Assembly (NCBI RefSeq): GCF_900095215.1
Contig: NZ_LT606949.1
Coordinates: forward strand, 302,284-366,283
Reading direction: 5' to 3'
DNA length: 64,000 nt
Origin: Polynucleobacter necessarius
GTDB lineage: Bacteria; Pseudomonadota; Gammaproteobacteria; Burkholderiales; Burkholderiaceae
The stretch's first letter is position 1. Every line of letters begins with the position of its first letter. Of the stretch, positions 9,365-59,537 are shown piece after piece. Below the pieces are notes generated by a model, which was not told the origin of the DNA, did not search any database, and was given only the letters and a program-made list of their open reading frames with translations. The translations under genes were made by a program, and so were the position numbers.

Positions 9365-9380
9365 ATGCTTGCAGCACAAT

Positions 9381-9408
9381 AAAAAAGCCGCAATTGAGCG
9401 GCTTTTTT
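9381..9408. terminator. Bidirectional terminator between iorB and the response regulator
   Basis: AAAAAAGCCGC (9381-9391), loop AATTGA, GCGGCTTTTTT (9398-9408). The A run on one side and T run on the other let it act for both converging units. Confidence 0.8.
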
Positions 9409-9432
9409 ATCGGCATGGGGGATTAGTCGTAA

Positions 9433-10515
9433 TTAATTATTTTTAATTTCTTTTAAAAACTTGCTACAGAAGATATATAACTCCAAACGGCTGCGTAAAC
9501 CTAGTTTTTCATAAATGGAGGCCAAGTGATTGCGAAGGGTGTGTTCGCTGATATGTAGCTTATCGGCGATTTCCTTTAAGGTAATTTCGCTATTGCTGGC
9601 AACTGTCTTTACGACGCTAAATTCTTTCTCGGTAAGGGCGTCCAAAGTCGTTTTTTTGATCGCTGATGTCACGTTGCAGACAGAGCCAGTGGGTAATGTC
9701 GCCGCCCCTATCTTTAATTGGGGACATATTGAGATCAACCCAAAACTCGGATTTATCGGCGCTGTAATTCACCATCTCTACGCGCACTGGTTTTTTGTTG
9801 ATTAAGCCTTGATTGACTTTATCGATAGCTGATTCTTGAGTGTTAGGCCCATAGAGAATATCCAGTGTTTTGCCTTCGGCAAATTCTTTTGCATACCCAG
9901 TCTTAGCGGTAAAAATGTCATTCACATAGACTATGCGTTGGCCGCCATCCGCCTTTGATCGGACATCGGTAATCATGACCACATCATCCGCTTGAGATAC
10001 GCAGGCCTCTAAGAGGCGTACTTGCTGTTCAGCTTCTTGACGGTTGACTAGAGTATCCACCATTTGTTGAACTTCAATATTGTCAAAAGGTTTTTTCAAA
10101 ATGAGGAAACGATCGCGTCTTGAAAGTTGCGCGCGAATTTCATCCCAAGAGTAATCAGAGTAAGCTGTGCACAGTACGATTTGAAGTTGAGAATCAGCGA
10201 TCCAGAGATTTTTAATCGTCTCTAAGCCACCCCAACCGTTAGGCATGAGCATATCAACAAAGGTGATGATATGGGGCCATCCCTCTTGAATTGCATCTTT
10301 AACTTTTTGAACGCCGTCCTGTCCTCGAAGGGCAAAACCAATTTGGTAATTGCCATGCTCTGTATGTTTTGCTTCCACAAAATTGAATTGGTGAGCTCCA
10401 AGAGTTTTTGGACCGGCGCGGTTGTGGGGCAAAGTACCTTGCAAAAATCCTCGTAAATCGCAGGATTGTCGTCAATAACCAGAATGCGGGTTTGCTGTTG
10501 ATAAGACTTAGACAT
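9433..10515 (-). pseudogene. Response regulator (REC-PAS-LuxR HTH), frameshifted
   Basis: The original order was receiver domain, PAS domain, LuxR-type helix-turn-helix. The start ATG at 10515 gives MSKSYQQQTRILVIDDNPAI with the receiver acidic pair. After ~30 residues the frame changes (between about 10380 and 10440) and continues TFVDMLMPNGWGGLETI with the phospho-acceptor Asp, then CTAYSDYSWDE and LILKKPFDN with the conserved Lys. The PAS segment includes RIVYVNDIFTAKTGYAKEF. A second frameshift in an A7 run (near 9655) separates CLQRDISDQK from the HTH (TLKEIADKLHISEHTLRNHL). It overlaps the 3' end of the histidine kinase remnant by eight bases, so they formed one operon. Confidence 0.82.
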
Positions 10516-10879
10516 TGACTGGATTGATGCTCGCAGGCTGTTTTGGTAGTGTAAGCATAAAAGTAGCACCCTTATCTTTTCCGGAACTAAATGCCTGGAG
10601 GGTGCCCCCCATCTCATTGGCCGCAATCGCACTCGCGTGCAAGCCTAAACCATGCCCCAAGGGCTTGGTGGTCAAACCATACCTAAAGAGTTTATTCAGG
10701 ACCTCTGGCTCAATACCGGTGCCGTTATCGGCAACCTCGATCTGGATGCCATCATTCTTATTGTTAAAGCTAGTGATCTTTAGAGTTTTCGGTTCATTGG
10801 CGCTGGCAATGAGCGACTCTTCGGAGTTCATGATGAGATTAAGCAGGATTTGGGTAATTTTGCTGCGATCACCATCACT
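10508..10879 (-). pseudogene. Histidine kinase C-terminal remnant (HATPase domain)
   Basis: Only the ATP-binding end of a sensor kinase remains. The N-box region reads SKITQILLNLIMNSEESL, the G1 box VADNGTGIEPEVLNKLF and the G2 box GHGLGLHASAIAANEMGG, ending at the stop 10508. The frame is closed by TAG at 10880-10882 and the sensor and dimerisation parts are gone. The next sequence is the 3' end of the SRAP gene, so a deletion probably joined the two. Its partner response regulator starts inside its last codons. Confidence 0.8.
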
Positions 10880-10901
10880 CTACTCAGCCTGTCATCGCCT
10901 T

Positions 10902-11523
10902 CTAGGCGATAGTCAGATCCGGAATGGAGTTGAGTTGCAGCAATACCTCCGCCTCTTCTGGGGTGGCATTAAGCCATGCCTTAAACAGTTTGGGGCGCAG
11001 TGGTATTACCGTACGTTTTTCATCTGCAGGCTTGTTCATCCGCTTTATTACAGGATGGATGTCAGCATTCATGGTGAGTATGGAAAATGAAACAATCAGT
11101 TTGCCGGTGTCTGGCTCGGTCCAGGTATCCCAAATTGAGGCAATTGCCATTGGATCGTTATTTGCTTGTTTAATAGCGGTGCGCACTGCTTTATCGGATT
11201 CATAGCAGGGCGCATAAAAGGCGTCAGCTAAAGCTAGCGCGTAATGTCGCTTAATCCATGCGTTTTTATAAGAAGGTTTTTCAGCTACCGTCTCTACTCT
11301 GGCGTTATAGGTCTTTCTGCCAAAAGTCTCTTCTTTTGCCCAGGACGGCAATAAGCCGAAGCGCGCCAAGCCAATCGCAGTGCGACCAGTGTGATGGCTT
11401 TTCAGAAAAATAGTACCTGGATAGGTTGGAAATACATCGTGGGTATTGGATGCTGGCAAATCTAGCTCAAAGTGGGGTTTTCACCCAATCTATATTGGCG
11501 GTGGTCAGATATTGAACACACAT
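10902..11523 (-). pseudogene. SRAP/YedK-like abasic-site protein, frameshifted, catalytic Glu changed
   Basis: This is the SOS-response-associated peptidase family (YedK/HMCES), which crosslinks its Cys2 to abasic sites in single-stranded DNA. The ATG at 11523 gives MCVQYLTTANIDWVKT with Cys2 present. A C4 run (G4 at 11474-11477 on the plus strand) then puts the sequence out of frame; with C3 it would read VKTHFELDLPASN and continue through GLARFGLLPSWAKEE and YNARVETVAEKPSYKNAW. The motif usually read by me as FYEPCYES in this subfamily is FYAPCYES, so the conserved Glu is Ala (GCG). The later His region (NADIHPVIKRMNKP) is kept. The indel could be a read error, but the substitution argues for real decay. 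Confidence 0.78.
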
Positions 11524-11607
11524 GGAATGATTTTACTGTGGCTTATTTCGATTTAATCGATAGCGGCTGGTAATATTGAGGTTAAATTTTAGAAAGATAT
11601 CTTCCTG

Positions 11608-12447
11608 ATGAAAAACTTTACTTCCATGTTTAATCCAGTGATGCTACGTTTTATTGCCGCCGGTGTATTTGCTGGCATGTCCGTGGGCGGAGCCTATGCT
11701 CAATAAAGTGGTTGACCTATTAATAATGCTGCGGCATCTGTTAACGGAACCATCGTTACTAATGACATGGTCGAGCAAGGAATAAAAGCCGTCGTTTCTC
11801 AGGGGCAAAAAGATTCACCAGAATTGCGTAAAGTAGTCATCGAAAAGTACATCGAAGTATTGTTGCTTTCACAGCAAGCTGAAAAAGATGGTTTGGCTAA
11901 TTCTGAAAGAGCGAATACACAGTTAGCGATGATTCGCCAAAATTATTTAGCGGATCCAGAATTATCGACTTATATGTCGAAGAACCCAATTACCGATGCG
12001 GATGTTCAGGCTGAATACAACAAAGAGATCGCCTCTTTGGGTCCTCAAGGCATGATTGTGGAATATAAGGTGAGTGATATTGCTGTAGCTACTGAAGCAG
12101 ATGCTCAAGCAGCATTGGCCCGTATTAAAAAAGGTGAGTCATTTGATAAGGTTGCCAAGAGTGTTTTATTGGCTCCAAATAAAGTACAGGGCGATGCCGT
12201 GGGATGGGTTCAGGCTGGGCAGGTAGGTCTGCAAATAGCTCCCGTACTGACTACGCTTGCGAAGAGGCAAGTATCGCCAGCACCCATTCAGATGCAACAA
12301 GGCTGATCTGATTAAGAAGATAAAAGATCAAGCAAGCCGCCATCATTTGAACAAGCAAAGCAGGCTATTCGCGCTGGTTTGACGCAAAGAAAGCAGTTTG
12401 AGTTTTTAGGGCAAATCGCAAAAGATGCGAAGATTGTTGTTCAGTAA
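11608..12447 (+). pseudogene. Parvulin-type (SurA/PpiC-like) peptidyl-prolyl isomerase, decayed
   Basis: A periplasmic folding chaperone of the parvulin family. A signal peptide runs from ATG 11608 to about AGMSVGGAYAQ, and the next codon is TAA, with a TGA three codons later. The body resumes in the same frame (NNAAASVNGTIVTNDMVEQG, then ELRKVVIEKYIEVLLLSQQA) into the PpiC domain (IVEYKVSDIAVATEADAQAA, ARIKKGESFDKVAKS, GDAVGWVQAGQV). After QQG stop (12303-12305) frame disruptions follow, and the natural end QFEFLGQIAKDAKIVVQ finishes at 12447. At least three lesions are visible. Confidence 0.83.
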
Positions 12448-12470
12448 GCTTCAGCAAGCCTAAAGAGACA

Positions 12471-12493
12471 AGGACCCTACTGGGCCCTTTTTA
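12471..12493 (+). terminator. Terminator after the parvulin remnant
   Basis: AGGACCC (12471-12477), loop TACT, GGGCCCT, with one A-C mismatch, followed by T5. It overlaps the last codon of the convergent folA gene. Confidence 0.6.
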
Positions 12494-12985
12494 TTTGCGA
12501 TCTAGGGTAACAAAGCTAAAATTAATGTCGCCTTCGGAACCTGGGGTTCGCCCTACTTCTTTCCAGGCAAATTCATTGGGTACTTCGAAGAAGGTATCGC
12601 CACCTTCAATATCTAAATCAATTTCAGTGATGTAAAGACGGCCTGCTTTATCAAAGGCTTGTTTAAAGAGTTGCTCGCCGCCAATCACAAAGGCGCGTTC
12701 AAATTCATTCAAACTCCTTAGGGCTTCATCAAGAGATCCCACTAATTCAGCGCCCGTTAATAGGTAGCTCGCGTTACGGCTGACAACAATATTACGGCGT
12801 CCGGGAAGCGGGCGTCCAATGGATTCCCAAGTCTTTCTTCCCATGATCACGGGGTGACCCATGGTGACGCGCTTAAAAAACTGTAAGTCAGCCGATATTT
12901 TCCAGGGAATTTGATTGTCGCGGCCGATGACGTGATTACGAGAACGCGCAACAATCATGGAGATAGCGGGATAGGTTATAATCAC
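12491..12985 (-). CDS. folA: Dihydrofolate reductase
   Basis: A 164-residue NADPH-dependent DHFR producing tetrahydrofolate. Motifs are intact: NHVIGRDNQIPWKISADLQF with the catalytic acidic residue after Ser-Ala, HPVIMGRKTWESIGRPLPGR for NADPH binding, and AFVIGGEQLFKQAF. The ATG at 12985 lies five bases after the thyA stop, so thyA-folA form an operon in the order common in Proteobacteria. The two genes are also functionally linked, because ThyA oxidises the folate that FolA re-reduces. Confidence 0.93.
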   Translation of the reverse strand: MIITYPAISMIVARSRNHVIGRDNQIPWKISADLQFFKRVTMGHPVIMGRKTWESIGRPLPGRRNIVVSRNASYLLTGAELVGSLDEALRSLNEFERAFVIGGEQLFKQAFDKAGRLYITEIDLDIEGGDTFFEVPNEFAWKEVGRTPGSEGDINFSFVTLDRK

Positions 12986-12990
12986 AATTC

Positions 12991-13785
12991 TTAGATAGCT
13001 ACTGGAGCTTTAATGTGGGGATGGGATTCATATCCCACGATTGCGAAATCTTCAAACTCGTAATCAAAAATGGAGTCAGGCTTACGCAAAATATTGAGCT
13101 TCGGTAGTGGGAAGAAATCGCGAGATAGCTGTAGCTCAACTTGCTCCAAATGATTGCTATAAAGATGGCAATCACCGCCGGTCCAAATAAAGTCTCCGAC
13201 TTCTAGATTGCATTGTTGCGCCATCATGTGTGTGAGCAAGGCATAGCTAGCAATATTAAATGGAACGCCTAAGAAGATATCGGCGCTACGTTGATAAAGC
13301 TGGCATGACAACTTGCCATCAGCCACATAAAACTGAAAGAAAGCGTGACATGGCGCTAAAGCCATCCGAGGAATGTCGGCTACGTTCCAGGCAGAAACAA
13401 TAATGCGTCGTGAGTCTGGATTCTTTTTGATGGTCTCAACGACTTCGGAGATTTGATCGATATGCTGACCGTTGGGCGCAGGCCATGATCGCCACTGATA
13501 ACCATAGATCGGTCCCAAATCACCATCTGGTGCCGCCCACTCATTCCAAATAGAAACACCCCGTTCTTTAAGCCAATGATTGTTTGTGCTGCCTTTGAGA
13601 AGCCAGAGCAATTCATAAATAATCGACTTGAGGTGCAATTTTTTAGTAGTCACCATCGGAAAGCCATCGGCCAAATTAAAGCGCATCTGATATCCAAATA
13701 CGGATACTGTGCCAGTTCCAGTTCTGTCGGATTTTTGAACCCCCTTGGCGAGGACTTCCTTCATGAGATCGTGATATTGACGCAT
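12991..13785 (-). CDS. thyA: Thymidylate synthase
   Basis: A 264-residue ThyA, the family's usual length. It methylates dUMP with methylenetetrahydrofolate. The active-site block is intact ([14 protein letters not shown] with the nucleophilic Cys), as are [31 protein letters not shown] and the N-terminal [18 protein letters not shown]. Upstream at 13822 begins the permuted 12.4 kb segment. Removing that segment would place thyA 45 bases after the ferredoxin reductase stop codon on the same strand. Confidence 0.95.
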
Positions 13786-13821
13786 ATGTATTGGCTAAAA
13801 GTGGTTATGTATTAACGAATT

Positions 13822-14365
13822 ATCGTGTTTGCGGATTAGGACGTAAAGCTTGTTGATTGACCACGGCAGGAGATAACCAAGCACAGCGCCCAAAACGGCA
13901 TCTCCGGGAGTTACAGGTAAATAGCCAATAGCCGAACCAAATAATCCCAGCCATAACATCGAAAAAGTTAAATGATCTGGCAGTAAAAATGTTTCCAAAT
14001 CAATGAAAAAGAGGCTAATAGCAAGCGTGAAGAACAGCGCGTACAACAAGGCAATCAATGTCAAATCAAATTGCCAAGCGCTCCATGCAAAAGCTGCTCC
14101 CGTTAGAAGCTCTACCAAAATATAGCGGGGTGATATGCCATGCCCACAATGAGCGCACTTGCCACGCAAAAAAAGCCATGAGAGAACTGGAATGTTTTCT
14201 TTCCAGCTTAATCTTGACCCACAGCATGGCGCTGTTGAAGCTGGCCACAACAAGCAGTTAAGCGACGCATGGATCTTTCATCACCGCTTTTGGCAGACGA
14301 TGAATCACCACATTCAGCAAACTGCCGATGATGAGACCCCAGATAGTTGCGACAAATATTTCCAT
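13822..14365 (-). pseudogene. pilD: pilD prepilin peptidase, N-terminal two thirds
   Basis: PilD cleaves and N-methylates type IV prepilins in the inner membrane. The ATG at 14365 gives MEIFVATIWGLIIGSLLNVV and HRLPKAVMKDP. A stop and frameshift follow near 14252, and the frame then runs WKENIPVLSWLFLRGKCAHC to ISPRYILVELLTGAAFAWSA. The first catalytic Asp motif FFIDLETFLLPDHLT is intact. The match ends abruptly at LIRKHD (13825-13822), after which unrelated codons reach a stop at 13795. The second Asp motif GGGD is found 12.4 kb away at 26.2 kb. The gene is therefore broken twice. Confidence 0.88.
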
Positions 14366-14573
14366 ATCGCCCCCCTAAAATCTGCTTGTGACGTTGTTTG
14401 GATTAATGAAAAACTTTGCAGTTCCTGACTCTGCAAAACGTTCAATTTAAAATTGCTGCACCACTTCCCTTGCTACATGGAGATAGTGTTGAACGCTGGA
14501 GGTTTTTAAAGAATGGTACTTATTTTGTTGTAAAGAAACCATATCCTTTACTTGGTCAGGAGTCTTATTCGGG

Positions 14574-15155
14574 ATGACAGTCATATCCTCAAATACTGGA
14601 ATTGGTGACCTCACTTTTGCAACCGCCATTTGGCCGTATGCCGATAGAGAGCAAAAGAAATATTTTGGTGTAGCTGCGTATCTGGCAGTCCCCACTGGAA
14701 GCTACAACAGCCAACAAGCTTTTAATACGGGAGAGAGCCGATATCGATCCGACAGTCAAATGGGTTACCAACAACCCATTATTGAAAATTTAAATAGAAT
14801 GATTGCTGTTGATACTATGTGGTTTGGAGGTAATAGCCAATGTGCCGCAGCATGTTTTTCCGCAAACAATACCTCCTTAAATAAAAAACCACTCACAACC
14901 ACGCAACTTGGCCCCCTCTATAAGCTCAATGAAAACTACACTTTTGGTGCCTCTTACTTTTATGTGGCTGGTGGCGCCACTACGATTGGCAACACGTATC
15001 AAAACAATGTCGTGAACACTCAGCGTTTTCTATTGAGTGCATTAGCCTATTACCATGTTGGCAGAATTAGCCTGCAGTACGGGCGCGATATGGAAATCAA
15101 GAATAGCTTGATAGAAACACGACGCCTTGCTGTTCGCTTCACCACTGAGTTTTAA
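14574..15155 (+). pseudogene. Outer-membrane transporter-like protein (phenol MetA-degradation family), N-terminus lost
   Basis: This is the C-terminal ~190 residues of a beta-barrel protein resembling the MetA-pathway phenol degradation/transporter family (DUF-type, PF13557-like). Typical blocks are SNTGIGDLTFATAIWPYADR, KKYFGVAAYLAVPTGSY and LNENYTFGASYFYVAGGA, and it ends with Phe (RRLAVRFTTEF). No signal peptide or N-terminal strands precede it. The 208 bases back to pilD hold only a short unrecognised open stretch from about 14410 (reading KIAAPLPLLHGDSVERWRF, stop at 14577) that I could not assign. It lies opposite in strand to the pilus genes. Confidence 0.65.
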
Positions 15156-15170
15156 AGCCTCTCAGCCTCT

Positions 15171-15759
15171 CTACCGCTGAAGCAATCTCTTTATCGGAGG
15201 CAGTCGGTACATCAGCAATAGAAAAAGCACTGCGCCATAGATTGCGACCGTCCCGTCCCTAAGTCGTTTTTCCCCGCTTTATGCCACCAGTAGTGCAGTA
15301 TCGCCGTGCAAGCAATTAAATAGACAAGCTGATGCAATAAGGTCCAACGCCTTCCCAGCTTTCGTATGGCCCATTGGTTTGATGTCACTGCCAAGGGTAT
15401 CAGTAGCACTAAAGTCAGAAAGCCCATGATTATGAAGGGGCGCTTAATCACATCACCCCACATCAAGTAGACATCTAAATTTTGGTCCAACCAGAACCAA
15501 ACCGAAAAATGAATGCAGGCATAGAAGAAGCAAAGTAGACCTAACATGCGACGCAACTTAATCCAGACACTCATACCTGTTATTAGGCGCAAGGGTGTCA
15601 TAGCAAGCATAAGACATAAAAAGACGAGTGCCTAAGTACCAGTTAACGAGTAATAAACTCAATTGGATTTGCGCCTAACCAATCATCCATACCGAGCCAA
15701 ACCAGGCTGGCCAGAGGTAATAGAGAAAGGGAAAAGATAGATGCCTTCAGAAAAGTCAT
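15171..15759 (-). pseudogene. msrQ: msrQ (yedZ) haem-binding membrane subunit of MsrPQ, decayed
   Basis: MsrQ is the b-type haem inner-membrane protein that delivers electrons to MsrP. The start near 15759 gives MTFLKASIFSLSLLPLASL, then LGANPIEFITR, the family hallmark, followed by TAA. The frame then shifts and continues LAMTPLRLITGMSVWIKLR, RRMLGLLCFFYACIHFSVW with haem-ligand His candidates, and GRRWTLLHQLVYLIACTAIL-HYWW. Another frameshift near 15260 precedes the natural end VAIYGAVLFLLLMYRLPPIK (stop 15171). Its partner msrP is 13 kb away and also dead. In most genomes the two are adjacent. Confidence 0.88.
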
Positions 15760-15829
15760 AAGACATCTTAGAGGATTTTTCCAAGCTGATCCATGCTTCA
15801 GTAAGTTGGCGACAAACAGCTTTTAATAA

Positions 15830-16420
15830 TTACTGATTACTGGCAAATCGATACTTAGCTTGCCAAACATTGAGCACTAGCGATGAATATGTATCCGTTC
15901 CCAGGCTACCATTATACCTAACAAGACCTCTTCCGACATCATTTTTCTCTACATCAAGATAGTGGCGCAAAATAATGCACCCATATCTTAGGTTGGTTTG
16001 CACATCAAATAGAGAGTCTTTCTCAGAGCCAATCAAATCCTTCCAAAATGGCATTACCTGCATTAAGCCTGATGCCACACAGCAATACCAGGATATCTCT
16101 TTGACTAATCGCCAAGAGTTGCGTCAAAAATTTAACGGCGGCACATCGATCAATTCGTTTAAAGATGTTACTCATGCCATTGGTTGGATTAGCCAGCCAT
16201 CTTATTTGCTACGCAACAAAATTCCAGATGATCGTAAGCGTCGAGAGTTGTTAAGAATGATTCATTATGAGGCGACGCGATATCAGTTAGACCCAGATTG
16301 AGTATTGGCGTTAATTGAGGTGGAGAGCGGTTTTAATCGTTTTGCGCTATCGCACGTGGGGGCAGCCAACCCCAGTCAAGGGAATAGCCATACAGGGATG
16401 ATTAAAGTAAAGGCTTTCAT
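15830..16420 (-). pseudogene. Lytic transglycosylase (SLT) with inverted internal segment
   Basis: The minus strand begins at ATG 16420, overlapping the pilC stop by four bases, with a signal peptide MKAFTLIIPVWLFP-stop-LGLA. It ends with the SLT domain C-terminal half (SGLMQVMPFWKDLIGSEKDS, NLRYGCIILRHYLDVEKN, RYNGSLGTDTYSS). The middle (16077-16360) is on the plus strand. There it encodes the preceding part, TQQYQDISLTNRQELRQKF through LALIEVESGFNRFALSHVGA with the catalytic Glu. Flipping it restores LGLA-ATQQYQD and HVGA-SGLMQV exactly. Two further in-frame TGA codons (in the signal peptide and before VLALIEVES) confirm decay. Function: peptidoglycan cleavage in the periplasm. Confidence 0.87.
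16077..16360 (+). other. In-place inversion inside the lytic transglycosylase gene
   Basis: The segment is flanked by TGCC (16073-16076) and GGCA (16361-16364), a perfect 4-base inverted repeat at the two junctions. It reads as the middle of the transglycosylase on the opposite strand to the gene's ends, and re-inversion rebuilds both coding junctions. Confidence 0.85.
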
Positions 16421-17664
16421 GATCCGTATGTGCCGGTAACAACCTGCCCCATCTTAAAGATAGGTAAATACATAGCGACCAAGATAAAATCAATGACGCC
16501 GCCCAAAAAGCAAATCATGAGGGGCTCCATCATTTGTGAAAGCTTTTCAACTGTGGAATCAAATTCTTCTTCAAAGTAGCTGCTAATCGTTTCCAGCATC
16601 TTAGTCATGTTACCGGTTTGCTCCCCTACGGAAATGAGTTGCGAAAATGTTGGTGGAAAGATAGCAATCTCACTTAATAGCTTAGAGAGGGGTTCGCCAG
16701 AAAAAAACACCTCTCTTAGCGGACTGAATTGCATCTTTAATCACTTCATTCTTGGAAGATTCAGCCGTAATGTCTAACGCTTCGATTACTGGCACACCGG
16801 CTCCAGAGAGGTTTCCATACACCATGGCTATTTGAGCGAGAGTGGAATTGAGAATCATCTCTCCAATCAAAGGCAGCTTTAACAGATAAGCATGCCACTT
16901 GTGTCGAAAGGCTAAATTCTTTTGCACAGCCTGCCGCAATAGGTAGACCGCCAGAATAATGAGTACTAGCCATCATAGGGGTCGCGCAAGAAATTACTAA
17001 TACTCATAATAAAGAGTGCATGTGCAGGCAGCTCAGAACCAACGCTGCCAAACATTTCCGCAAAGACAGGCACCACAAATATCATCATGATGCCAACCAC
17101 TACCGTAGCAACCATCAACAAGATTGCCGGATATAACATCGCGGATTGAATGCTTTTGCGAATCTTAATCGTCTTCCGACTACTGAGAACTAGCTTATCC
17201 AGAAAAATATCCAAGAGGCCACTAGACTCGCCAGCCTTCACCATATTGACATAGATAGCATTAAAAATATCTGGATGCTTTACGAAGGATTGGGACAGGC
17301 TTGATCCCGACTCCACATCAACATAGATCTGATTCACAGTCTCTTGAAGCGCGGAATTTTCGACTTGATCTATCACCATGGCTAGAGAAGGCAAGATGGA
17401 AAGTCCCGAACGGAGCATAGTCGCCATCTTTTTGGTCGAGATCATGATTTGGATCAGCTTGACCTTCTTCTTTAACTTGAAAAGCTCTTTCCAATTTCTG
17501 CGCTCTTTGACTTCTTTTTCAGCCTCGCGCAACTTTTTAATCAGTTGCGTAATGATGATGCCGTCAATCTTTAATTTATGAGCAGCTTCATCTCGAGTCA
17601 GCGCATTGACTGTGCCAGAGACATACTGCGTATTGCGCATACCCTTCCAATCAAAATCAGGCAT
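16417..17664 (-). pseudogene. pilC: pilC type IV pilus inner-membrane platform protein, frameshifted
   Basis: PilC is the polytopic platform protein on which the PilB motor acts. The start at 17664 (MPDFDWKGMRNTQYVSG) and the first GSPII_F domain (TKKMATMLRSGLSILPSLAM, VNMVKAGESSGLLDIFLDKL) are intact to about 16980. The reading then passes to other frames: TLAQIAMVYGNLSGAGVPVI with EALDITAESSKNEVIKDAI, then FSQLISVGEQTGNMTKMLET and MMEPLMICFLGGVIDFILV to the stop 16417. At least two frameshifts (near 16960 and 16700) separate three readable blocks. Its end overlaps the transglycosylase start by ATGA. Confidence 0.88.
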
Positions 17665-17693
17665 AGCTATCCTCAGTTAAATACCAGATTGTT

Positions 17694-18876
17694 CTAGTAC
17701 TCCTCTATAGTCAAAATACCGTCGAGCACCATTTGCCTGCCGATTGACTGCATCGGACGAAATTCATCTTCTTCCGCGATCTTCTTGAGACTTCTTCTAT
17801 CCTCAGAAACAATCGCTGCACGCATTGCTTCTGAAATTTTCAGTACTTCATAGATGTCTTGTCGACCTTTGTATCCCGTGTGATTGCATTTTTCACAACC
17901 AGCACCGTGATAAGGCTTGGCTGATTTAGCGTCTTCAGCACTAAAGCCCAAGTGCAGCAAAATGGCTTCGTGATTGCCCGCATGCTCCTGCTTACAAGCC
18001 GGACAAATGCGCCTTGCCAACCTCTGTGCAATCACCAATGTCAAAGCTGCGCCAATTAAGTAGCCTGGAATGCCCATATTGATTAAGCGTACTACCGTAC
18101 TCACAGAATCATGCGCATGGAGTGTAGACAGCACAAGGTGGCCCGTTAGCGCGGCTTTAATGGAAATATCCGCCGTCTCTTTATCGCGAATCTCACCAAC
18201 CAAAATAATTTCTGGATCTTGGCGCAAGAATGAACGTAATGCCGAAGCAAAAGTGAGGCCAATGTCATCCCGAATCTGAACCTGCCATACTCCATCAATC
18301 GTACATTCCACCGGGTCTTCCGCAGTCAAAATATTGACGCCCGGCTTATTTAGGCGCTTTAATGCGCCGTATAAGGTGATCGATTTACCAGATCCAGTAG
18401 GGCCGGTAACCAACACCATGATCGGCACTTTTTGTAAACGCTCAATAAAACTGCCGATAACTTGATCGTTAGAAGCATCACCTTTGATCATCAAACTATT
18501 TGGGCTACTAAATTCAATATTAGTAAACCAAACGCCACCAGGAACTACCTGATTTACAGCGCTGAGCAGTTGATAGTTTGATGCCTGATTTGATTTAAAT
18601 TTTTTGCTGGCATCTAGCATTTGCGAATATTTAGACTTTTGTGCCTTTAGTGCGGCCAATGAAGCTTCTTTCAGCTGCACTTGCTTTTCAATTTGTACGG
18701 CTTTTTGGTATTGATTGGATAAAGTATTGTTAAAGAAATGCTGATATAAAAAAGTGCCGACGATAAAGACGGCCACAACCAATGCGCTGGCAATCATGCC
18801 GACTTTGGATAAGATTTTTTTTACGCTCAATCTGCTTGACTACATCACGATTAGGTAACAAGTTGACGTTATTGAC
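17694..18876 (-). pseudogene. pilN-pilB in-frame chimera
   Basis: The upstream part is PilN, the inner-membrane alignment-complex protein. It has [18 protein letters not shown], a one-base excess in an A8 run near 18823, a membrane segment [20 protein letters not shown], a coiled coil, and [19 protein letters not shown]. At about 18420 the frame passes without a stop from RLQKVPI into [19 protein letters not shown], the Walker A of the PilB extension ATPase. PilB then continues through [43 protein letters not shown], the zinc Cys pairs ([15 protein letters not shown]) and the end. From 18830 down, 378 codons are open. A deletion has removed the PilN end, the PilB N-terminus and whatever lay between (pilO, pilP and pilQ in many genomes). 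It is unlikely to be functional. Confidence 0.85.
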
Positions 18877-19944
18877 GCCAGTAACGTACTTGTAATATCC
18901 AAAAATATCAACCTTACGTACCGCCAGGCCCACTGCCGAGGTAAAGCAGAGACATTTGGCTCCGAGTCAATCACCTCATTGAGGTTGCTTGGAATCTGGA
19001 GATCTGCCAGTGGATAAAAGAGATCGATGTGGTAGCCATCAAGCACTTTACGCATTTGTTGAAGCAGCTCTGATTTATCCCGAATAGGCGAAACCAATAA
19101 AACTTGATCGATCAGTTTTGTTACCCAGTTTGATTTCATATGCTCTGAAGGCCTGCAAAACTTGACCGGCAAAACGATCATACAAACGATCACCCTGCGC
19201 GCCCTCTAATTCACCAGACTCAATTAATAGCCTGTCAGCCTCAGAGATATAGATGTCATAGATAAAGGGGGTGTCATCCGCAACGATCAACACATAGTTT
19301 TCATTTGGGCCAAACTCAATTAAGGCTGTCGTGCTCTGGTTTTTATCTTTTTGAGCCTTTAACGCATTGCGGATTGCAAAGCAACGCACGTCTACTACTA
19401 CTGGATTTAAGCCAGCTCTTGTGGCAATTTGGACGTATTGATTGATTTCTGAAAGCTTGGAAGCCACAAAAAGCAGCTCCATCGTATTTTCAGCAGTATT
19501 GCGACGAATTACCTGCCAGAATATAGAGTACTCTTCGAGCTTTTCCTCTCACTGAAGAATATTGTTCCAAAGTGAATCATATTGAATCGCGCTTTCAATT
19601 TCCTCATCACTCATGAGCGCTCCTAAAAGCATTTATTGATGCCTTAAGCAAATACTACATCAAGCAAGAGGATGTGGTGTGGGTAGACATTAATCCCAAT
19701 TTCATCCGAGTTGCGCAATTGAGCGAGAACTCGGATGGTTGGTTATTGGAGAAGATGGGTTATCAGCAGGTATCTGATAACGCATCATTTGATGACATTC
19801 GCGACTCTCAAGATGACTATGTTCAGAAACTTAGAGGGTTAATTCTGAGTGCGAATTTGGAAACTGCAAACGCCGCTATTTCTATTCCGATTACCAGCGC
19901 CATTGTTCGTACGGTCACGATGCCGCTTGAAATGAATTTTTCAT
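18877..19944 (-). pseudogene. pilM: pilM actin-like pilus protein with inverted N-terminal segment
   Basis: PilM is the cytoplasmic actin-like member of PilMNOP. The minus strand carries the C-terminal two thirds: SDEEIESAIQYDSLWNNILQ-stop-EEKLEEYSIFWQVIRR, LNPVVVDVRCFAIRNALKAQ, DRFAGQVLQAFRAYEIKLG, then KLIDQVLLVSPIRDKSELLQ in a shifted frame, ending about GLAVRKVDIFGYYKY. The N-terminal third (19617-19941) is on the plus strand: VVWVDINPNFIRVAQLSE to AISIPITSAIVRTVTMPLE. An ATG at 19944 on the minus strand, just after pilY1, is probably the old start. The inversion, a TGA and at least two frameshifts are present. Confidence 0.87.
19617..19941 (+). other. In-place inversion of the pilM N-terminal segment
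   Basis: The ~325-base segment encodes PilM residues from about LLKAFIDALSKYYIKQED to TVTMPLEMNF on the strand opposite to the rest of pilM. The left junction is the palindrome TCATGA (19611-19616) and the right one TCATAA (19941-19946). A few bases at the junction do not rejoin in frame, so the breakpoints are known only to within ~6 bases. Confidence 0.78.
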
Positions 19945-19960
19945 AATCTAATTGGCGCGT

Positions 19961-22732
19961 TTAATAAACCCGCTTCTCTCTCCAAGATTTGTACTGCACT
20001 TTGCCAGCTGGAGTCGCCTTACTGGAGGTCAGCTTGATAATGCTCTCGCGTCCACTAGGCGCCCCTGTTATGTTGGGGACGTTTCTCAGCCCAACATAAA
20101 TATTGCCCTTGCCATCAACCACAGGAGTTGTAGCTAAGCCTGGTCCGATAGCACCGCCAGCGCCACCACTCTCACAGATATCGGTAACTTCAATTAATTG
20201 GCTGGATCCATATATATAGGGCAATCCTTTGCTTCTGGCTGATAGGCCGAGAAATAGACATACTTGCTATAGACAGTAGCTCTGCCAACAATTTTTTGAT
20301 AATCCGCGCCAACAATATTGGTTCTATCAAAGACGTTGGCATACCACGATGTGTTCGCCGGGCACTTTAAGTGTTTACCAATATTGGTAAACATGACAGG
20401 GCTTGAGACCGTCTGATTGGAGATACTCAAATTCGCACCTGGAAATGCAGTGTCAGATACTCCATAAATTCGATTGTTGATTGTGTGGGATCGACGTTGA
20501 ATTCGAATTAAATCCCCAGTACCAAAATAATTGAATAGTGGATATTTTTTATTTGTGCTATCGGTAGCATCCTCAACAATAGTCGTGCCCAACTGATTGA
20601 ATCCCATACGATCATTGGCTAGTGTGGCCTCACTACGGAATGATTGATAGAGTGTAAATAAATTAGGCTTTCTGGAAGACAATAGATCAGGTTGACTCAA
20701 ATTAAACTTCCACAACTTGTCTTGCAAGTCAGTGAAATAAGCTAAACCTCCGTAATAATTCGCAAATGAAGTTCCATCCCCATTGACTACAGTTAAATGC
20801 GCTGTTACTCCGTTGGGAATATTGGAGTTTGGATCGTCTGTTAATGGAGCCTTAACAATGACATGACCGCCAGTAGAACCAATAACTCCATTACCAGTAG
20901 CGCCGCAATTAGCGGTTGTTATTGCTAAATTCGCCTCTAAGTCAATGACATAAACATAGCCGCCAAATGAACTGCTAGAGCCAGTGCCGGTAACTGATGC
21001 CCCACCAGAATAGCCACCACAAAAGCAGCCACCCAACGCTGCTCAGTTCCATATGGCATCAACATAATTACCGGCCTAGACCAAGCACCACCTAATTTAG
21101 AGCAATCAAAATCATTGCAAGAAGCAATATAAGTAAAAGTAGACTTTTCACCTGCCGCATTCCAGTAGTTAATCACTTTATTGGCCACATCATTGTTTAC
21201 AGTAAACAAATGTGTCGGCGTATCGGGATTGGTGACATCAAGTGCGTAGTAGCTGTTACCACCCCATACAAGACCGCCCATCAAAACCGTTTTCCAGATG
21301 CCTCCTGTAAATATGTCTTTCACAGTAATAGGGCCATCAACAGAAAAGATGCTGTTACTTGTGCCACCGCCAGGACCAACCCCATTTGTGCCAATCATAT
21401 TTCTCAGGATTGGCATTACAGACGGAGGAATAAAAGCCCATCGTTCATTTAAATCAGTATCGAATGCACGTAACATGCCATCATTTGCGCCTACATAAAT
21501 TTGAGATCTGCGATCTTTGTTTTCGGTAATAAACGCGTCGTAACTGTTATTAAAACGATAGTAAGCCTCAGATTTGGAAAAATGATCTTTATCGTTGATA
21601 GATAAGGCATTTGGAGCACCAACCATCACCATCTCAGAATGGTAGGTAGGCCGGGTCATAACCCATTGAATAGGTTGTGGCACCGACACTGGCCATATCT
21701 TTAGCCAGCTTTGTCTGGGCATTAGCCTCACCCATCGGACCGCTTGCGCCATAGTAAATGTAAAACGTTGCGGATTCATTACAAGCAAGATCGCCAAATT
21801 GGAAGTCAAAAGATGAGCCTGTTTGTCCATGCAATCCGGTGTAGTCAGTATTTAAAGATGCTGAATCATGAGGGACGCAAGCAAGAAATGGATTGGCGTG
21901 TTTATTATCTTCGCCGCCATTATCACAATAGCTCCAAATCTTTGGATAGTAACTACAGAGATAGGAAGACTGAACACCAACGGAATTAACATAGGCATCC
22001 GTCATATTCTCAATGACATCCCAATCCATAGTCCGACAATAGCGAACTCTCAATGACATCCCAATCCATAGTCCGACAATAGCGAACATCCCTGAGAGTT
22101 CCAACGGAAATATTCGTCATTGTCACCAAGACCTGAAATAAAGTTTTGTTGGTTGCCCCCGTGGTGGGTCCGTATATATGACTCACCTGTAGCATGGGAA
22201 TACCAGAGCGGTCATTAATAGTAGCAACAGACTGAACACTCGTGGTGTCAACGGTGAAACTTTTTACCGTCATAGTTGTTTTAGATGTAGCGGTGCCGCT
22301 ACCTATTTGTTGACTGACCGATGCCAAGGCTTCAAGGCCGGTGTTATCTAGTGCGCCGGCCGACCAAGACTCCCATTGACCACCCTGGCTAGTTGAGTCA
22401 TACCATCCCTGAGGGTAGATTCCAATAACTACACCCTTAGAATCTTTTTTAGGGGCACCCTCCAAGTCATAGGAAATACCAACAGAACCAGCATTCACGC
22501 CACTAATTTTTGTGCGCTTATCTGCCATGAGCGTCTGATTCTGGGAATTGGTTGCAGCAGTACCGCAGCCATCACCAGTATTGAGATTGCCCGCACGATT
22601 GATACCCAGCATAATGGTCTGCTCGGACTGAACGAGGGAATTGTGAATAATTCCGAAGCTGCCCGGAGCGCATTGAGCGTTTGCAATGGATGGCAAGGCC
22701 AGCAGCAATATGAGATAAGCCAAGATTCTCAT
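19961..22732 (-). pseudogene. pilY1: pilY1-like pilus tip protein, heavily decayed
   Basis: It has a signal peptide (MRILAYLILLLALPSIANAQ) and an N-terminal region to about 22047, where a 40-base tandem duplication shifts the frame. The frame resumes RTMDWDVIENMTDAYVNSVG, shifts again near 21700, then enters the PilY1 C-terminal propeller: SQIYVGANDGMLRAFDTDLN, WAFIPPSVMPILRNMIG, MGGLVWGGNSYYALDVTNPD. Another shift near 21000 leads to LEANLAITTANCGATGNGVI and YFTDLQDKLWKFNLSQPDLL, and a last one near 20215 to the end. Total coding length is ~920 codons, somewhat shorter than typical. At least four frame breaks occur. PilY1 is a secreted or cell-surface pilus-associated protein. Confidence 0.87.
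22008..22087. repeat. Perfect 40-bp tandem duplication in pilY1
   Basis: The unit starting TCTCAATGACATCCCAATCC occurs at 22008-22047 and identically at 22048-22087. Because 40 is not a multiple of three, it shifts the pilY1 frame and duplicates the coding motif VRYCRTMDWDVIE in two frames. Confidence 0.95.
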
Positions 22733-22741
22733 AAGATGTGC

Positions 22742-23290
22742 CTACGGAGTGAACCGCAAGACCACCTCCAAAGCTGATTTGCTTGATGCCGCAACACCAT
22801 TGGCAACACTACCTGTGGTTGAAATCAAAACATCGTAGGTAAATGTTCTTGTGCTGTATCCATTCACGGTACCGATTTCGCCACCAATATTGTCTATTGG
22901 TCGCGCATTCACAAGACTCACCGCGCAATCTAAATAGGATGCGCGCTTGACCCATTAAACTGTTTTGCCTAATAGAGCACCTCCTGGTAACTTCAATAGG
23001 TTTTCTGGTTTATTTAATATGGCAATATTCAGCCAGCTACGCCCTTCGGATGAGGAACGCCAATCAATCGCATCATCAACACAAGCCTCACCCGCCTCAA
23101 TGGACAAAGATTTATCAGATACCGCCGAAACCAAATCGCTTTGAACCGACGCAATGTATGCAATCAATCCCATTGCAGTAATCACCAGCAAGAGAATGAG
23201 TGTAGTTACCATCGCAATGCCCGATTGCGCGGGAAAGTGAACGATTGGCTGATTGCAGACGAGAGATGAGTTAGGGTGCCAAGGAGACAT
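22742..23290 (-). pseudogene. pilX: pilX-like minor pilin protein, frameshifted
   Basis: A PilX N-terminal signature follows the start at 23290: QSGIAMVTTLILLLVITAMG and LIAYIASVQSDLVSAVSDKS, then ACVDDAIDWRSSSEGRSWL. The frame ends at 22955 (LGKTV stop). In another frame the protein continues SYLDCAVSLVNARPIDNIGG and VLISTTGSVANGVAASSKSA to its natural stop (22742-22744). One frame break, near 22940-22960, separates them. Its start overlaps the end of pilW, as in intact minor-pilin operons. Confidence 0.78.
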
Positions 23291-23928
23291 TTCTGGCCCT
23301 CTCTAAAAACGTCAACGACTTCTTAACCTGATAATTTGATCCTTCAATTTTTTTAGTAGAAATCAGAGACAGTTTCACCTGAATCGCCTGAGGTTGATCT
23401 TTAAAGATTCCTGCAGTTTTCAGGCTTTTTTCTCTACCAAAAAAGCATCCACACCGCCCAGCAATGGCTCACCAGTATCGACACAAGTCTGAGTTTGTAC
23501 ACAATTTAGTAGGTCAGAACCGCAACTCTGCTTTGCTCTCAACAAACGATTGCTAACACCGTATGCCTTAAGGCAATAACGCACAGACTGCCTATCCCAA
23601 TTTCTAGCCGTATCCAGTTCGTCATAAATCAAAGTTACTTGATCCGCATTGCTACCGGTTATTTGAATTGGAGAATTTGGATGGATTCTGTCGACCACGA
23701 TTTTTTTGACGGGATCCCAATAAGCGGTAAATCCAGCCATGCGCATATCAGATCGCATTAAATCAATTGCTCTTAAGGCATTACGATCAAGATTCGTCTT
23801 GGATAAAAGGGCTTGCTGTTGAGCGGAAAAAATGTGTAGGCGGCATAGGTGCCGTTCAATACGATTGAAGTAACTGCAATAGCCACTAGCATCTCAACTA
23901 AGATGTATCCCTGAGAGTTGAGGCTCAT
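23271..23928 (-). pseudogene. pilW: pilW-like minor pilin protein, frameshifted
   Basis: The ATG at 23928 gives MSLNSQGYILVEMLVAIAVT, a prepilin-type N-terminus (normally GFTLVE, here GYILVE). A one-base change in a T6 run near 23828 shifts the frame; the correct reading is YFSAQQQALLSKTNLDRNAL followed by AIDLMRSDMRMAGFTAYWDP. Another shift near 23420 leads to LKTAGIFKDQPQAIQVKLSL and the natural end ERARNVSLAP (stop 23271). Its start overlaps the pilV stop in ATGA style. Confidence 0.8.
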
Positions 23929-24432
23929 ATCGCCCTCATCTTTCTACTACAGAAGGTGTTTACCGACCCATTCCCAGTATTTAAGGTGACTTCAATGGTG
24001 AGATTTCCAAGAACATCCTTACGTACATCGACTTGACATTTATCCAGCGTACTTTTTAAATCAAATGGCCCAATATTTTGGACAAGGTCATTGCACCAGT
24101 CATATCGGAAATCAACGTATGGAGGTGTATTAGAAAATTGACTGCAAGTAATCAAACTACCGCTATATTTATCGGAAGAGGTAAAATGGATTTAAGTGAT
24201 CAGATAGAGCTCGCTGTGATTCCGAGGCAATTGTCTGCAGAATGCGATCCCCCATCAGGTTGAGATACATTCTCTGCTCAGTGCGCGAAATGGCAATCTG
24301 AGCATAGTTGTATAAAAAATATAGGCTGCTAAAGCCAATCGAAAAGATCGCCATAGCAACAAGGGACTCCACCAAAGTAAAGCCAGCCGTAGAATTCAAA
24401 CCCTGATTTGGAGAAACAGTGATCGGTAGCAT
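23925..24432 (-). pseudogene. pilV: pilV-like minor pilin protein, frameshifted
   Basis: The prepilin peptidase site and hydrophobic helix are clear: TAGFTLVESLVAMAIFSIGF after the start at 24432. The frame stops at 24169 (NPFYLFR) and continues in another frame with ITCSQFSNTPPYVDFRYDW and LGNLTIEVTLNTGNGSVNTF to the stop at 23925. One frame break near 24160-24175 is enough to explain this. The start codon shares one base with the fimT stop (TAATG). Confidence 0.8.
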
Positions 24433-25001
24433 TAATCCAGCTCCTTGCACTGACTACGATCGCCGCCAATACACTTATATTTCTCTATAAATCCCGTAGT
24501 GGGATTGACCAAGATTTGATAAGAGCCTAATTTTTGTTTGTTACTAATAGGCTCAATGAGTAGCTCTATCCGACCTGCGACACCTTTAAGGGAAGATTGT
24601 CCAGATGATAGGAATACCCCCTCATTACCAGTACACAGAGGGGAGTTAATCTTTGTGCGTCCCGATCAAATATTAAAAGCCGGGTCTGCTTGCTTTGGAT
24701 CTTCAACAACCGCTGCACTTGGGGTGGATGGAAGGCTGAAGTCGCTCTGAGATTTATTAAATATCTGATAAGACAACGCATTTCCATTGCCAATGGTTTG
24801 GCAACTTAAAACTGCGGTGCCATTTAAGACTCGTGCCCGAATCTTTAAATATTCAACCTTAGATAAGGCAGCATAAAAATCAGCCTCAAGAGCCTGGCGT
24901 TGACGCCAATCGCCAAGGCTAGGCGACACCAAGGAAGTCACAATCATCAAAATTTCTATGACTACGATGACTTCGAGAAAGGTTACGCCGTGTTGATTCA
25001 T
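24432..25001 (-). pseudogene. fimT: fimT/GspH-like pseudopilin, frameshifted
   Basis: The prepilin N-terminus reads MNQHGVTFLEVIVVIEILMI, with Phe and Leu inverted relative to the usual GFTLxE motif. The GspH/FimT domain follows (ALSKVEYLKIRARVLNGTAV). After DPKQADPAFNI stop (24666) the coding continues in another frame: INSPLCTGNEGVFLSSGQSS, GRIELLIEPISNKQKLGSYQ, then YKCIGGDRSQCKELD and stop 24432. At least one frame break is needed. It overlaps the pilT stop and the pilV start by a few bases. Confidence 0.78.
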
Positions 25002-25999
25002 AATGGGTCAATCTGCCCCGCTTGCTCTAATTGCTGCAGTGACGCTTCCATGGTGATCCTTCCCTCGCCGCGAGCCATTTGCATCACGCTTGGTATTTGA
25101 AATACTTTGTTCTCACGTATCAGATTGCGCACCGCTGGATTGCAGGTCATCACTTCGAATGCGCCGATACGACCTACCCCACCTTTTTTGCTAAGCAAGC
25201 GCTGGGTCATCACCAGACGAAGTGATTGTGATAACTGCGCCCTCACCTGGTCTTGTTGTTGAAATGGAAAAACGTCGATGATTCGGTTAATCGTGTTTGG
25301 ATCGCCACCGGTATTCAGGGTTTCGAATACTAAGTGTCCAGTTTCAGCAGCGGTTAGGGCAAGCCGAATAGTTTCTAGATCGCGTAACTCACCCACCAGA
25401 ATGACATCGGGATCTTCCCGTAAGGAAGCTCTTAGCGCAGATGAAAAAGAGAGGGTATCGCGTGCAACCTCTCTTTGTGAAATTACACTCTTTTGACTGC
25501 GATGTACGAACTCAATTGGGTCCTCGATCGTCATAATGTGACCAGGACGCTGCCGATTAATACGATCAATCATTGCCGCCAGCGTCGTTGACTTGCCTGA
25601 ACCTGTCGGGCATGTAACTAATATCAAACCATTTTCAAGCTCAATCACATCGCGAGCAACAGCCGGTAATCCCAAAGAATCAAAGCTCGGAATTTGCGTT
25701 TCAATCTTTCGCATCACCGCCGCCAAACCGCGGGCCGTTTTAAATAAGTTCACACGGAAGCGATACTCACCCGACTCCACCGCCAAGTCAGCATCAAAGC
25801 ATTCCATAAACTTCAGACGCTGCTCTTGTGTCAGCCAATTCTTAATGAATGAATCAAAATCGACTTGGGTAACGATGTCAGCCGCGAACGTATGAATATC
25901 ACCATCAACCCGTATCGCCACAGGCTCATTGACGTGCAAATGCAGGTCCGAAATCTTGTAATCTGTAACGTAGTGCAGGGCTTTATCGATGATTTCCAT
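24998..25999 (-). CDS. pilT: PilT-type retraction ATPase, full length but motif-altered
   Basis: This 333-residue frame is the only pilus gene in the block without a frame break. PilT hexamers power pilus retraction. The Walker A region reads VTCPTGSGKSTTLAAMID (usual GPTGSGKST, so the leading Gly is Cys). The Asp box (TIEDPIEFVH) and Walker B (DPDVILVGELRDLETIRLAL) are kept. The His box normally TLHT is FETLNTGGDPNTINRIID, with the His replaced by Asn. These changes suggest loss of activity before loss of the reading frame. It sits between the pilD C-terminal fragment and fimT with short overlaps. Confidence 0.8.
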   Translation of the reverse strand: MEIIDKALHYVTDYKISDLHLHVNEPVAIRVDGDIHTFAADIVTQVDFDSFIKNWLTQEQRLKFMECFDADLAVESGEYRFRVNLFKTARGLAAVMRKIETQIPSFDSLGLPAVARDVIELENGLILVTCPTGSGKSTTLAAMIDRINRQRPGHIMTIEDPIEFVHRSQKSVISQREVARDTLSFSSALRASLREDPDVILVGELRDLETIRLALTAAETGHLVFETLNTGGDPNTINRIIDVFPFQQQDQVRAQLSQSLRLVMTQRLLSKKGGVGRIGAFEVMTCNPAVRNLIRENKVFQIPSVMQMARGEGRITMEASLQQLEQAGQIDPL

Positions 26000-26020
26000 A
26001 GCAGTATCTGGAGTAAATGG

Positions 26021-26243
26021 TTATAAGTGGCTGACAACAAAGCCGAGCCCTGATAAAAGCAAGAATGGTCCAAACGGAAATGCTTGATTGAGAGTGAGAC
26101 CTTCGCGTTTCACAATTGATGCCAGACCAATCACCAACGAGCCGATAATGCTGGCATCACATAGGATAGGCACAATATTGATCCACTCAGTCCATACGCC
26201 CAATGCAGCCAATAACTTGAAATCTCCCCCGCCAAATCCATCG
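26021..26243 (-). pseudogene. pilD: pilD prepilin peptidase, C-terminal third
   Basis: From 26243 the minus strand reads GFGGGDFKLLAALGVWTEW, containing the second catalytic Asp motif GGGD. It continues ILCDASIIGSLVIGLASIVK and FPFGPFLLLSGLGFVVSHL to the stop at 26021. It has no start of its own; upstream is the ferredoxin reductase stop. It fits exactly after the N-terminal fragment at 13.8 kb, whose last matching residues are RKHD. Confidence 0.88.
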
Positions 26244-26248
26244 ATAGC

Positions 26249-27295
26249 TTACTCGAATGTGGGGGATTGCACCCCCAGGGCTTTGTGGAGTTTGGTTGAG
26301 GTGGTGGTGTATTGGAGTGGAATTTGCTTTTCTGGGTTCAGGTATTCGGCTGCGGCAAAGGCGGCTAGGGCTGCCTCATGAAAGCCAGACAGAATCAATT
26401 TTTTCTTGCCTGGATAGACAGTGATATCGCCAACCGCATAAATTCCAGGGGTGCTGGTTTGGAATTTTTCGGTATCCACGCAAATTTGTTTGCGATCGAT
26501 ATCTAGACCCCATGCAGCAATGGGGCTCAATTTAGGTGAAAGTCCAAAAAAGACTAAAAGATCATCCAACGCAATCTTTTTGGTGTCGCCATCAATATTG
26601 GTCAAAGCGACTTCCGCAAGTCGGCCTTCATGTTCTTCATATCCAGTCAATTGACCAATCAGTAGCTCCATTTTTTGATTGGTGCAAAGTTCGCGCATCC
26701 GTACAATGGATTTTGGTGCTGCCTTGAAATCATCGCGACGATGAATCAAGGTAACGCTAGCAGCGATTTCAGATAAATGGATTGCCCAATCTAGGGCGGC
26801 ATCACCACCTCCACAAATCACAATTTTTTTACCTGCAAATTGCTCAGGATATTTAACGTGATAGAAAAGCTGTTTGCCAATGAAGCGATCAATGCCCTCA
26901 AGATTCAGAGTGCGCGGTTGAAAGGCGCCAACGCCTGCGGCAATAAAGACGGTCTTACTGAGGAAGTGTTTGTCTTGCGAGGTGCTCATTAGAAAGAGGC
27001 CATCTGCTTGACGTTCTAGCTTGGTGACCTCTTGGCCAAGATGAAATTGCGGGGCGAAGGGCTCAATTTGCTTGAGTAAATTATTGGTCAGTTCGCGGCC
27101 AGTGCAAACAGGAATAGCGGGGATATCGTAAATCGGTTTGTCTGGATAAAGCTCAATACATTGACCACCCACCTCTGGCAGAGAGTCAATGACATGAGCT
27201 TTAATTTCTAGAAGGCCTAATTCAAAGACCTGAAATAGCCCAACAGGACCGGCGCCAATGATGATCGCATCGGTTTGTGTGGGTAAGTGCGACAC
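26249..27295 (-). CDS. Ferredoxin--NADP reductase, thioredoxin-reductase-like type
   Basis: A 348-residue FAD/NADPH flavoprotein of the TrxR-like FNR family, which lacks the CxxC pair. The FAD-binding motif is [18 protein letters not shown] and the NADPH motif [16 protein letters not shown]. The C-terminal FAD motif is [19 protein letters not shown]. It transfers electrons between NADPH and ferredoxin. The ferredoxin gene lies 19 bases upstream on the same strand, so the pair is probably co-transcribed. The stop is only six bases from the pilD fragment. The frame is intact. Confidence 0.88.
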
Positions 27296-27314
27296 GAATT
27301 CTTTGGCTAGAAAA

Positions 27315-27638
27315 TTACTTTACTAGCTGATCAAGTTTGTTTTTAACGTCTTTCCATTCTTCCGCATCTGGAAGAGCTACCTTAGACTTGGTAATAGATG
27401 TCCAAGCAGGGGAGAGGTCGGCATTGAGCTTGATGAACGCCTGTTGATCAGCGGGAACATCATCCTCGGCGTAAATGGCATTTACTGGGCACTCCGGAAC
27501 GCAAACCGCACAGTCAATGCATTCATCCGGATCGATCACTAAGAAGTTAGGACCTTCGCGAAAGCAATCAACTGGGCAAACATCAACGCAGTCAGTGTAT
27601 TTGCAGCGGATACAGGCTTCGGTAACAACGTAAGTCAT
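27315..27638 (-). CDS. fdxA: Ferredoxin FdxA (7Fe type)
   Basis: A 107-residue ferredoxin with a [3Fe-4S]/[4Fe-4S] arrangement. The N-terminal ligands are [17 protein letters not shown], and the second cluster motif is [19 protein letters not shown]. The C-terminal extension (~45 residues ending KNKLDQLVK) is typical of FdxA. It is the likely partner of the reductase immediately downstream. The 118-base gap to the divergent dehydrogenase gene must hold both promoters; I could not pick convincing boxes. Confidence 0.92.
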
Positions 27639-59338: not shown

Positions 59339-59414
59339 GCGGGAATAGCTCAGCTGGTAGAGCGATACCTTGCCAAGGTATAGGTCGGGAGTTCGAGCCT
59401 CCTTTCCCGCTCCA
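59339..59414 (+). tRNA. tRNA-Gly (GCC)
   Basis: A full cloverleaf: acceptor GCGGGAA paired with TTCCCGC, and an anticodon stem ATACC/GGTAT around loop TTGCCAA (anticodon GCC at 59372-59374). The T arm is GGGAG-TTCGAGC-CTCCT. The CCA end is encoded (59412-59414). Confidence 0.96.
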
Positions 59415-59463
59415 AGTTCGATGGGAAGCCCTAAAAAGCTTCCCATTTTTGATTCAAGTGTTT

Positions 59464-59537
59464 GGCGCGTTGGCCGAGTGGTTAGGCAGGAGCCTGCAAA
59501 GCTTCGTACGGGGGTTCGATTCCCTCACGCGCCTCCA
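59464..59537 (+). tRNA. tRNA-Cys (GCA)
   Basis: The acceptor GGCGCGT pairs with ACGCGCC and the discriminator is T, as in tRNA-Cys. The anticodon loop CTGCAAA gives GCA (59496-59498), and the T arm is GGGGG-TTCGATT-CCCTC. CCA is encoded at 59535-59537. It lies 49 bases after tRNA-Gly, probably in the same transcript. Confidence 0.95.

Follow-up and report, generated by a model that had tools for sequence, protein, structure and literature searches.

A split pilD gene in Polynucleobacter necessarius probably reflects two overlapping inversions in a decaying type IV pilus island

Introduction

The chromosome of Polynucleobacter necessarius raises a question of gene order: how did its prepilin peptidase gene, pilD, come to be divided between the two ends of a block of pilus genes, with the parts in the wrong order? 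The stretch analyzed (64,000 nucleotides of RefSeq assembly GCF_900095215.1, contig NZ_LT606949.1, positions 302,284 to 366,283; herein referred to as the window) carries this block of 12,418 bp (13822–26239) between thyA and fpr, a ferredoxin/flavodoxin NADP reductase gene named in an earlier, first-pass annotation. That annotation took as its simplest reading a DNA circle of pilus genes that integrated here by a crossover at a four-base match inside pilD, and listed nested rearrangements and misassembly as alternatives. Comparison with other genomes of the genus leads us to conclude that the block is not a unit, because it includes native DNA and because a piece of the pilus island is absent from it, and that two overlapping inversions of neighboring DNA, within the decay of the island, probably produced the present order.

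Results

pilD Was Once Whole and thyA and fpr Were Neighbors

Residue mapping (numbered after the protein of genome G110) bears out the split as first described: residues 1–182 run from 14365 to 13822, with a frame change near residue 32, and residues 182–251 run from 26242 to 26033, both on the minus strand, in reversed order and with ATCG common to both junctions, thyA|pilD-N and pilD-C|fpr (table 1). That pilD was formerly one gene agrees with the contiguous pilD–pilT of G110, G002 and G023. The proposal that fpr–thyA is the former empty site is likewise upheld; removal of the block with one ATCG kept leaves a spacer of 45 nt, which is also its length in L094 (Polynucleobacter sp. MWH-Jannik1A5, the best-matching named relative). 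Indeed, in 20 of 24 congeners the matches to thyA and fpr share a strand and are separated by at most 105 nt, fpr being a fragment or broken in two of these genomes (G002 and G017); of the other four, G015 has about 800 nt between the two genes, and G005, G006 and G009 are without a close fpr. Among 80 fpr loci, thyA is present in the fetched DNA of 12, starting less than 150 nt from the fpr end in all 12, and absent from the fetched DNA of the other 68.

The crossover at a four-base match is more doubtful. ATCG does stand at both pilD junctions, but a match of this length carries no significance on its own (at least four common bases occur in 18261 of 20000 random pairs of 30-base windows), and CGAT, as it reads on the minus strand, occurs at the exchange site in 0 of 13 relatives' loci (CCTT in 8, CCCT in 2, CTCT in 2 and CCAT in 1; two of these loci, L005 and L096, are the same genome by coordinates). 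Because those loci lack CGAT, the match may have been absent before the exchange, and CGAT may have been duplicated at the break rather than having existed beforehand.

The view that the fragments are partial duplicates of an intact pilD elsewhere was rejected: pilD-N has a single place in the genome, and of the four Peptidase_A24 matches found there, two are the halves of the window pilD and two are pieces of one other gene. This second prepilin peptidase gene (G000:C1:127865-128190) is broken too, and an intact one was not found in the genome. The misassembly listed as an alternative in the first-pass annotation is improbable, given that the assembly consists of a single contig of 1,703,354 bp, that repeats within 9000–27500 are at most 29 nt and imperfect or very short (save a 40-bp tandem in the pilY1 remnant), the junctions having none of a length that could confuse an assembler, and that decay runs on through the pieces.

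The Block Contains Native DNA and Lacks One End of the Island

Pieces delimited by alignment to relatives give the window order L K A T -D1 -E -M -D2 F (minus for reversed), in which L and F are the native flanks, K is a response regulator and kinase remnant, A and T are the native genes from SRAP to thyA (10898–13821 with the thyA leader), D1 is pilD-N, E is the tail of a DUF4124-type gene, M is msrQ with a Phenol_MetA_deg gene (herein phenol), and D2 (15836–26242) runs from slt through pilT to pilD-C. We presume the names kinase, folA-like, DUF4124-type, msrQ, pilY1-like and minor-pilin-like, together with all pil names other than pilD, pilT, pilB and pilC. In K, the Pfam domain PAS was detected and Response_reg fell below the cut-off.

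Whether block and unit coincide is decided by two features absent from the first-pass annotation: an island piece left outside the block (9432–10882) and a native piece caught, inverted, inside it (14590–15776). The latter, 1.2 kb of DNA, lies on the other side of thyA and in the opposite orientation in nine of nine relatives' loci compared (G024, G013, G110, L094, L096, L097, L098, L099 and L083, which is G118), all of which have the order L M A T F; G013, G024 and L094 are without the last L gene there, G110 lacks an fpr at this locus, and the comparison with G013 used two separate pieces. L and M matches are separated by 62 to 151 bp in the six loci where the last L gene is present (G110, L096, L097, L098, L099 and L083). 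Clear similarity stops at 9417 for L and 15776 for M, corresponding to G110 366145 and 366159 (a first aligner run continued weak similarity past that point), and the L and M pieces hence together account for almost all of the empty L|M site.

An imported pilus circle or mobile element that entered fpr|thyA by a single insertion would accord with the island occupying different chromosomal sites in different species; however, it is contradicted by the content of the block, which holds inverted local msrQ–phenol DNA, and by the left end of the island, which stayed outside. We give this reading almost no credence, and the self-contained circle of the first-pass annotation falls with it. The earlier remark that no integrase or insertion sequence (IS) is visible does hold: 11995 of 12421 block positions match island genes or msrQ–phenol and the longest uncovered stretch is 140 bp, leaving no room for either in the block, to which the scan for recombinases and transposases was limited. 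There is no tRNA gene at the block ends, the only tRNAs of the window being at 59339–59537.

Two Overlapping Inversions Probably Account for the Window Order

We infer that, in this lineage, the island once lay between L and M, because its response regulator adjoins L, its slt adjoins M, and L and M are neighbors in relatives. The ancestor would have been L [K E D1 D2] M A T F, with an unbroken island (response regulator, kinase, pilins, pilD, pilT ... pilC, slt) between the molybdopterin-enzyme gene and msrQ, and the island would then have decayed. A first inversion, reaching from within pilD to the thyA|fpr spacer, would have flipped the DNA from pilD-C to slt, msrQ–phenol and SRAP to thyA, creating both reported pilD junctions together. 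A second inversion, overlapping the first and reaching from the kinase|DUF4124 stretch to the phenol|SRAP spacer, would have turned DUF4124, pilD-N and thyA to SRAP back again, so that the outcome of both would be the order observed, L K A T -D1 -E -M -D2 F. The breaks may have been joined at short matches or as staggered ends.

Arithmetic on the present order and that of the relatives is consistent with this scheme. A reversal search returns two inversions if the island starts at L|M, three or four for the other five local placements and four from a distant site; a direct move from a distant site was set aside on this count (four inversions versus two). A double-cut-and-join listing from the inferred ancestor includes no one-step path and exactly two two-step paths, which differ in the order of the exchanges: pilD with thyA|fpr first and kinase|DUF4124 with phenol|SRAP second amounts to two inversions, and the reverse amounts to excision of a circle and its inverted reinsertion. 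Both junction pairs are reciprocal, the pilD/fpr–thyA pair exactly and the second with flanking losses. The two junctions of the second exchange both carry CTGTCATC in the predicted orientation, and 166 of 20000 random window pairs reach eight common bases. GCATGG, common to L|K and slt|M, was not used, as 5031 of 20000 random pairs of 40-base windows do as well.

The second of these paths is a block interchange through a local circle, in which the DNA from DUF4124 and pilD to slt and msrQ–phenol would be excised between the kinase remnant and SRAP, closed at the eight-base match, opened inside pilD and reinserted inverted, without a recombinase, about 3 kb away between thyA and fpr. Its junctions all fit, although they are common to the inversion path; pilD and the fpr–thyA spacer re-join exactly, CTGTCATC would have given the ancestor the direct repeat that excision requires, and translocations are not rare in one survey (PMC12863080). 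Against this, two rare joinings are required while a non-replicating circle persists, the block is too full for an integrase, there is no selection for putting dead genes back, insertion is possible in either orientation whereas two inversions always yield the inverted one observed, and the process itself is called open in the literature (PMC2614205). The circle of the first-pass annotation is hence retained as one of two two-step paths, in a local form and as an unlikely one. Two inversions, which that annotation had listed among nested rearrangements, are favored because both of their intermediates are stable, no DNA need persist without replication, only the inverted orientation can result, and the same remnant carries two other small inversions.

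A single complex repair event (template switching, or several breaks mended together) could also have made all four new junctions, which lie within 16 kb and have short common sequences at both pairs; yet both pairs are reciprocal and need no copying, a single event is not called for, and we consider this improbable.

Several observations weigh against two inversions. The final order alone fits the inversion path and the excision-reinsertion path alike, and the second exchange is untidy, with about 2.1 kb of kinase/DUF4124 DNA and 0.7 kb of phenol 5' DNA missing relative to G110 and G024. There are no long inverted repeats at the ends, which have only 4 and 8 common bases; such repeats are typical of repeat-driven inversions and are not required of every inversion. 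Neither an intermediate arrangement nor an unbroken island at L|M was found among the genomes compared, which include no same-species strain and leave G083 unplaced. One survey puts translocations at roughly the frequency of inversions (four to three on average) and attributes both mainly to mobile elements (PMC12863080); the block contains no mobile element.

The Pilus Island Elsewhere in the Genus

With a cut-off of E at most 1e-60, 14 of 186 genus genomes have a pilT of this kind, the genome studied here included; the copies in G009 (41%) and G083 (58%) are distant, and the one in G067 is partial with stops. Placement covers 12 of the 13 other genomes, G083 being left out: pilT lies more than 200 kb from msrQ or thyA in seven (G002, G023, G067, G093, G110, G118 and G132), and on another contig than msrQ or thyA in five (G009, G056, G089, G160 and G176), whose contigs are drafts, so that distance is unproven. 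The window arrangement was found in its own genome only; relatives with the same permuted order, which the first-pass annotation had considered, were not seen among the genomes compared.

G110 (about 21 kb) and G132 carry the island from K to slt as one uninterrupted stretch, and its outer genes, response regulator and slt, are the same in these two genomes and the window. In G002 and G023, the pilD-to-slt part is likewise uninterrupted, and K is unmatched in the stretches searched. Among the genomes examined, the island occupies four different chromosomal sites (G110:C1:855904-876921; G132:C1:836096-856958; beside pgm in G002, G023 and G118; and the window at 9432–26242), with thiD as its neighbor in G110 and nadA on the side away from pgm in G023. 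In the genome studied here, the thiD-type site is closed, with 102 bases between the two matches, as is the pgm–nadA site, with 104 bases between open reading frames (ORFs); G092, which is without pilT, has 94 bases at the thiD-type site, so the 102 bases are no clear scar. A search of the genome with G002 DNA from pilD outward returned nothing, and also missed the genome's own pilD halves, making it too insensitive to prove absence.

Decay of the Island

Judged against the G110 proteins, pilT alone among the island genes of the window looks intact, whereas pilD, pilC, pilB, pilM/N, pilY1, slt, the kinase, the regulator and minor-pilin-like genes are broken (table 1); the best kept of these is a minor-pilin-like gene at 24459–25001 (183 of 189 residues aligned, with an in-frame stop). 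Nothing in the window, to which the search for pilins and pilQ was confined, matches either of the two pilins, which in G110 sit between the DUF4124-type gene and pilD, or the two ORFs taken as pilO/P and pilQ. We would not expect a functional pilus of this type. Small inversions of about 284 bp in slt and 301 bp in the pilM region are not present in the relatives aligned there and suggest that short inversions are frequent in the decaying island. The pilY1 remnant also contains a perfect 40-bp tandem duplication (22008–22087), and a 4.1-kb deletion relative to G110 leaves a pilM/N-like part and the 3' part of pilB in one open frame.

Table 1. Pieces and junctions of the window, in order of position
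Feature	Position	Strand	Correspondence
L: 3' part of molybdopterin-binding oxidoreductase gene and terminator; native left flank	8333..9417	+	Collinear with G110 365044-366145, beside msrQ there; Pfam MoCoBD
K: response regulator and 3' end of histidine kinase; island left end in G110 and G132; outside block	9432..10882	-	G110 855903-857735, upstream of pilD there; G132
CTGTCATC at kinase|SRAP junction	10889..10896	+	Same 8 bases at the other junction of the second exchange
A and T: native SRAP, PPIase-domain gene, folA-like gene, thyA	10898..13785	.	Collinear with G024 and G118; Pfam SRAP, Rotamase
ATCG at thyA|pilD-N junction	13822..13825	.	
pilD residues 1-182, internal frame change	13822..14365	-	
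E: tail of DUF4124-type gene, which precedes the pilins in G110	14523..14573	-	Matches G110 859819-859869
CTGTCATC at DUF4124|phenol junction	14573..14580	-	
M: native Phenol_MetA_deg 3' part (+) and broken msrQ (-; Ferric_reduct domain)	14590..15776	.	Inverted relative to relatives
slt (lytic transglycosylase), right end of island, broken by ~284 bp inversion at 16080-16363	15836..16379	-	Pfam SLT
pilC, three pieces in different frames	16429..17664	-	
378-aa ORF: pilM/N-like part joined to pilB 3' part over 4.1-kb deletion	17694..18830	-	
pilM/N-like remnant with ~301 bp inversion at 19624-19924	18417..19928	.	
pilY1-like and minor-pilin-like genes, broken	19964..25001	-	
pilT, full length	24998..25999	-	333/333 residues, 89% to G110
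pilD C-terminal part	26024..26242	-	
ATCG at pilD-C|fpr junction	26240..26243	.	
fpr, native right flank	26249..27295	-	

Discussion

The locus resembles the overlapping, or nested, inversions of bacterial chromosomes in that two reversals give the order, the orientation and all four new junctions of the window; it differs in that the ends lie at matches of 4–8 bp or at none, not in the oppositely oriented repeats called typical in the literature (PMC2483231). Block interchange (a double cut and join with a circular intermediate) would produce the same four junctions, the circle being cut elsewhere than at its closure point, as described in PMC2614205; however, the window order also fits nested inversions, and no circle was seen. 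The same paper states that block interchange outcomes can also arise by nested inversions, and leaves the existence or importance of the process open (PMC2614205). Relative to the type IV pilus island of other Polynucleobacter (G110 and G132, and partly G002 and G023), gene content and the order within pieces are alike, whereas in the window all compared genes but pilT are broken or unmatched and the pieces are shuffled.

The arrangement is probably without function, a product of pseudogene decay free of selection on gene order, and this unusual-looking gene order most likely has an ordinary explanation in routine genome decay. The locus thereby offers a worked case in which a circularly permuted gene split suggests a circle, yet two overlapping inversions explain it equally well, and it records how a Polynucleobacter genome, itself smaller than those of most relatives, has been losing a pilus island step by step.

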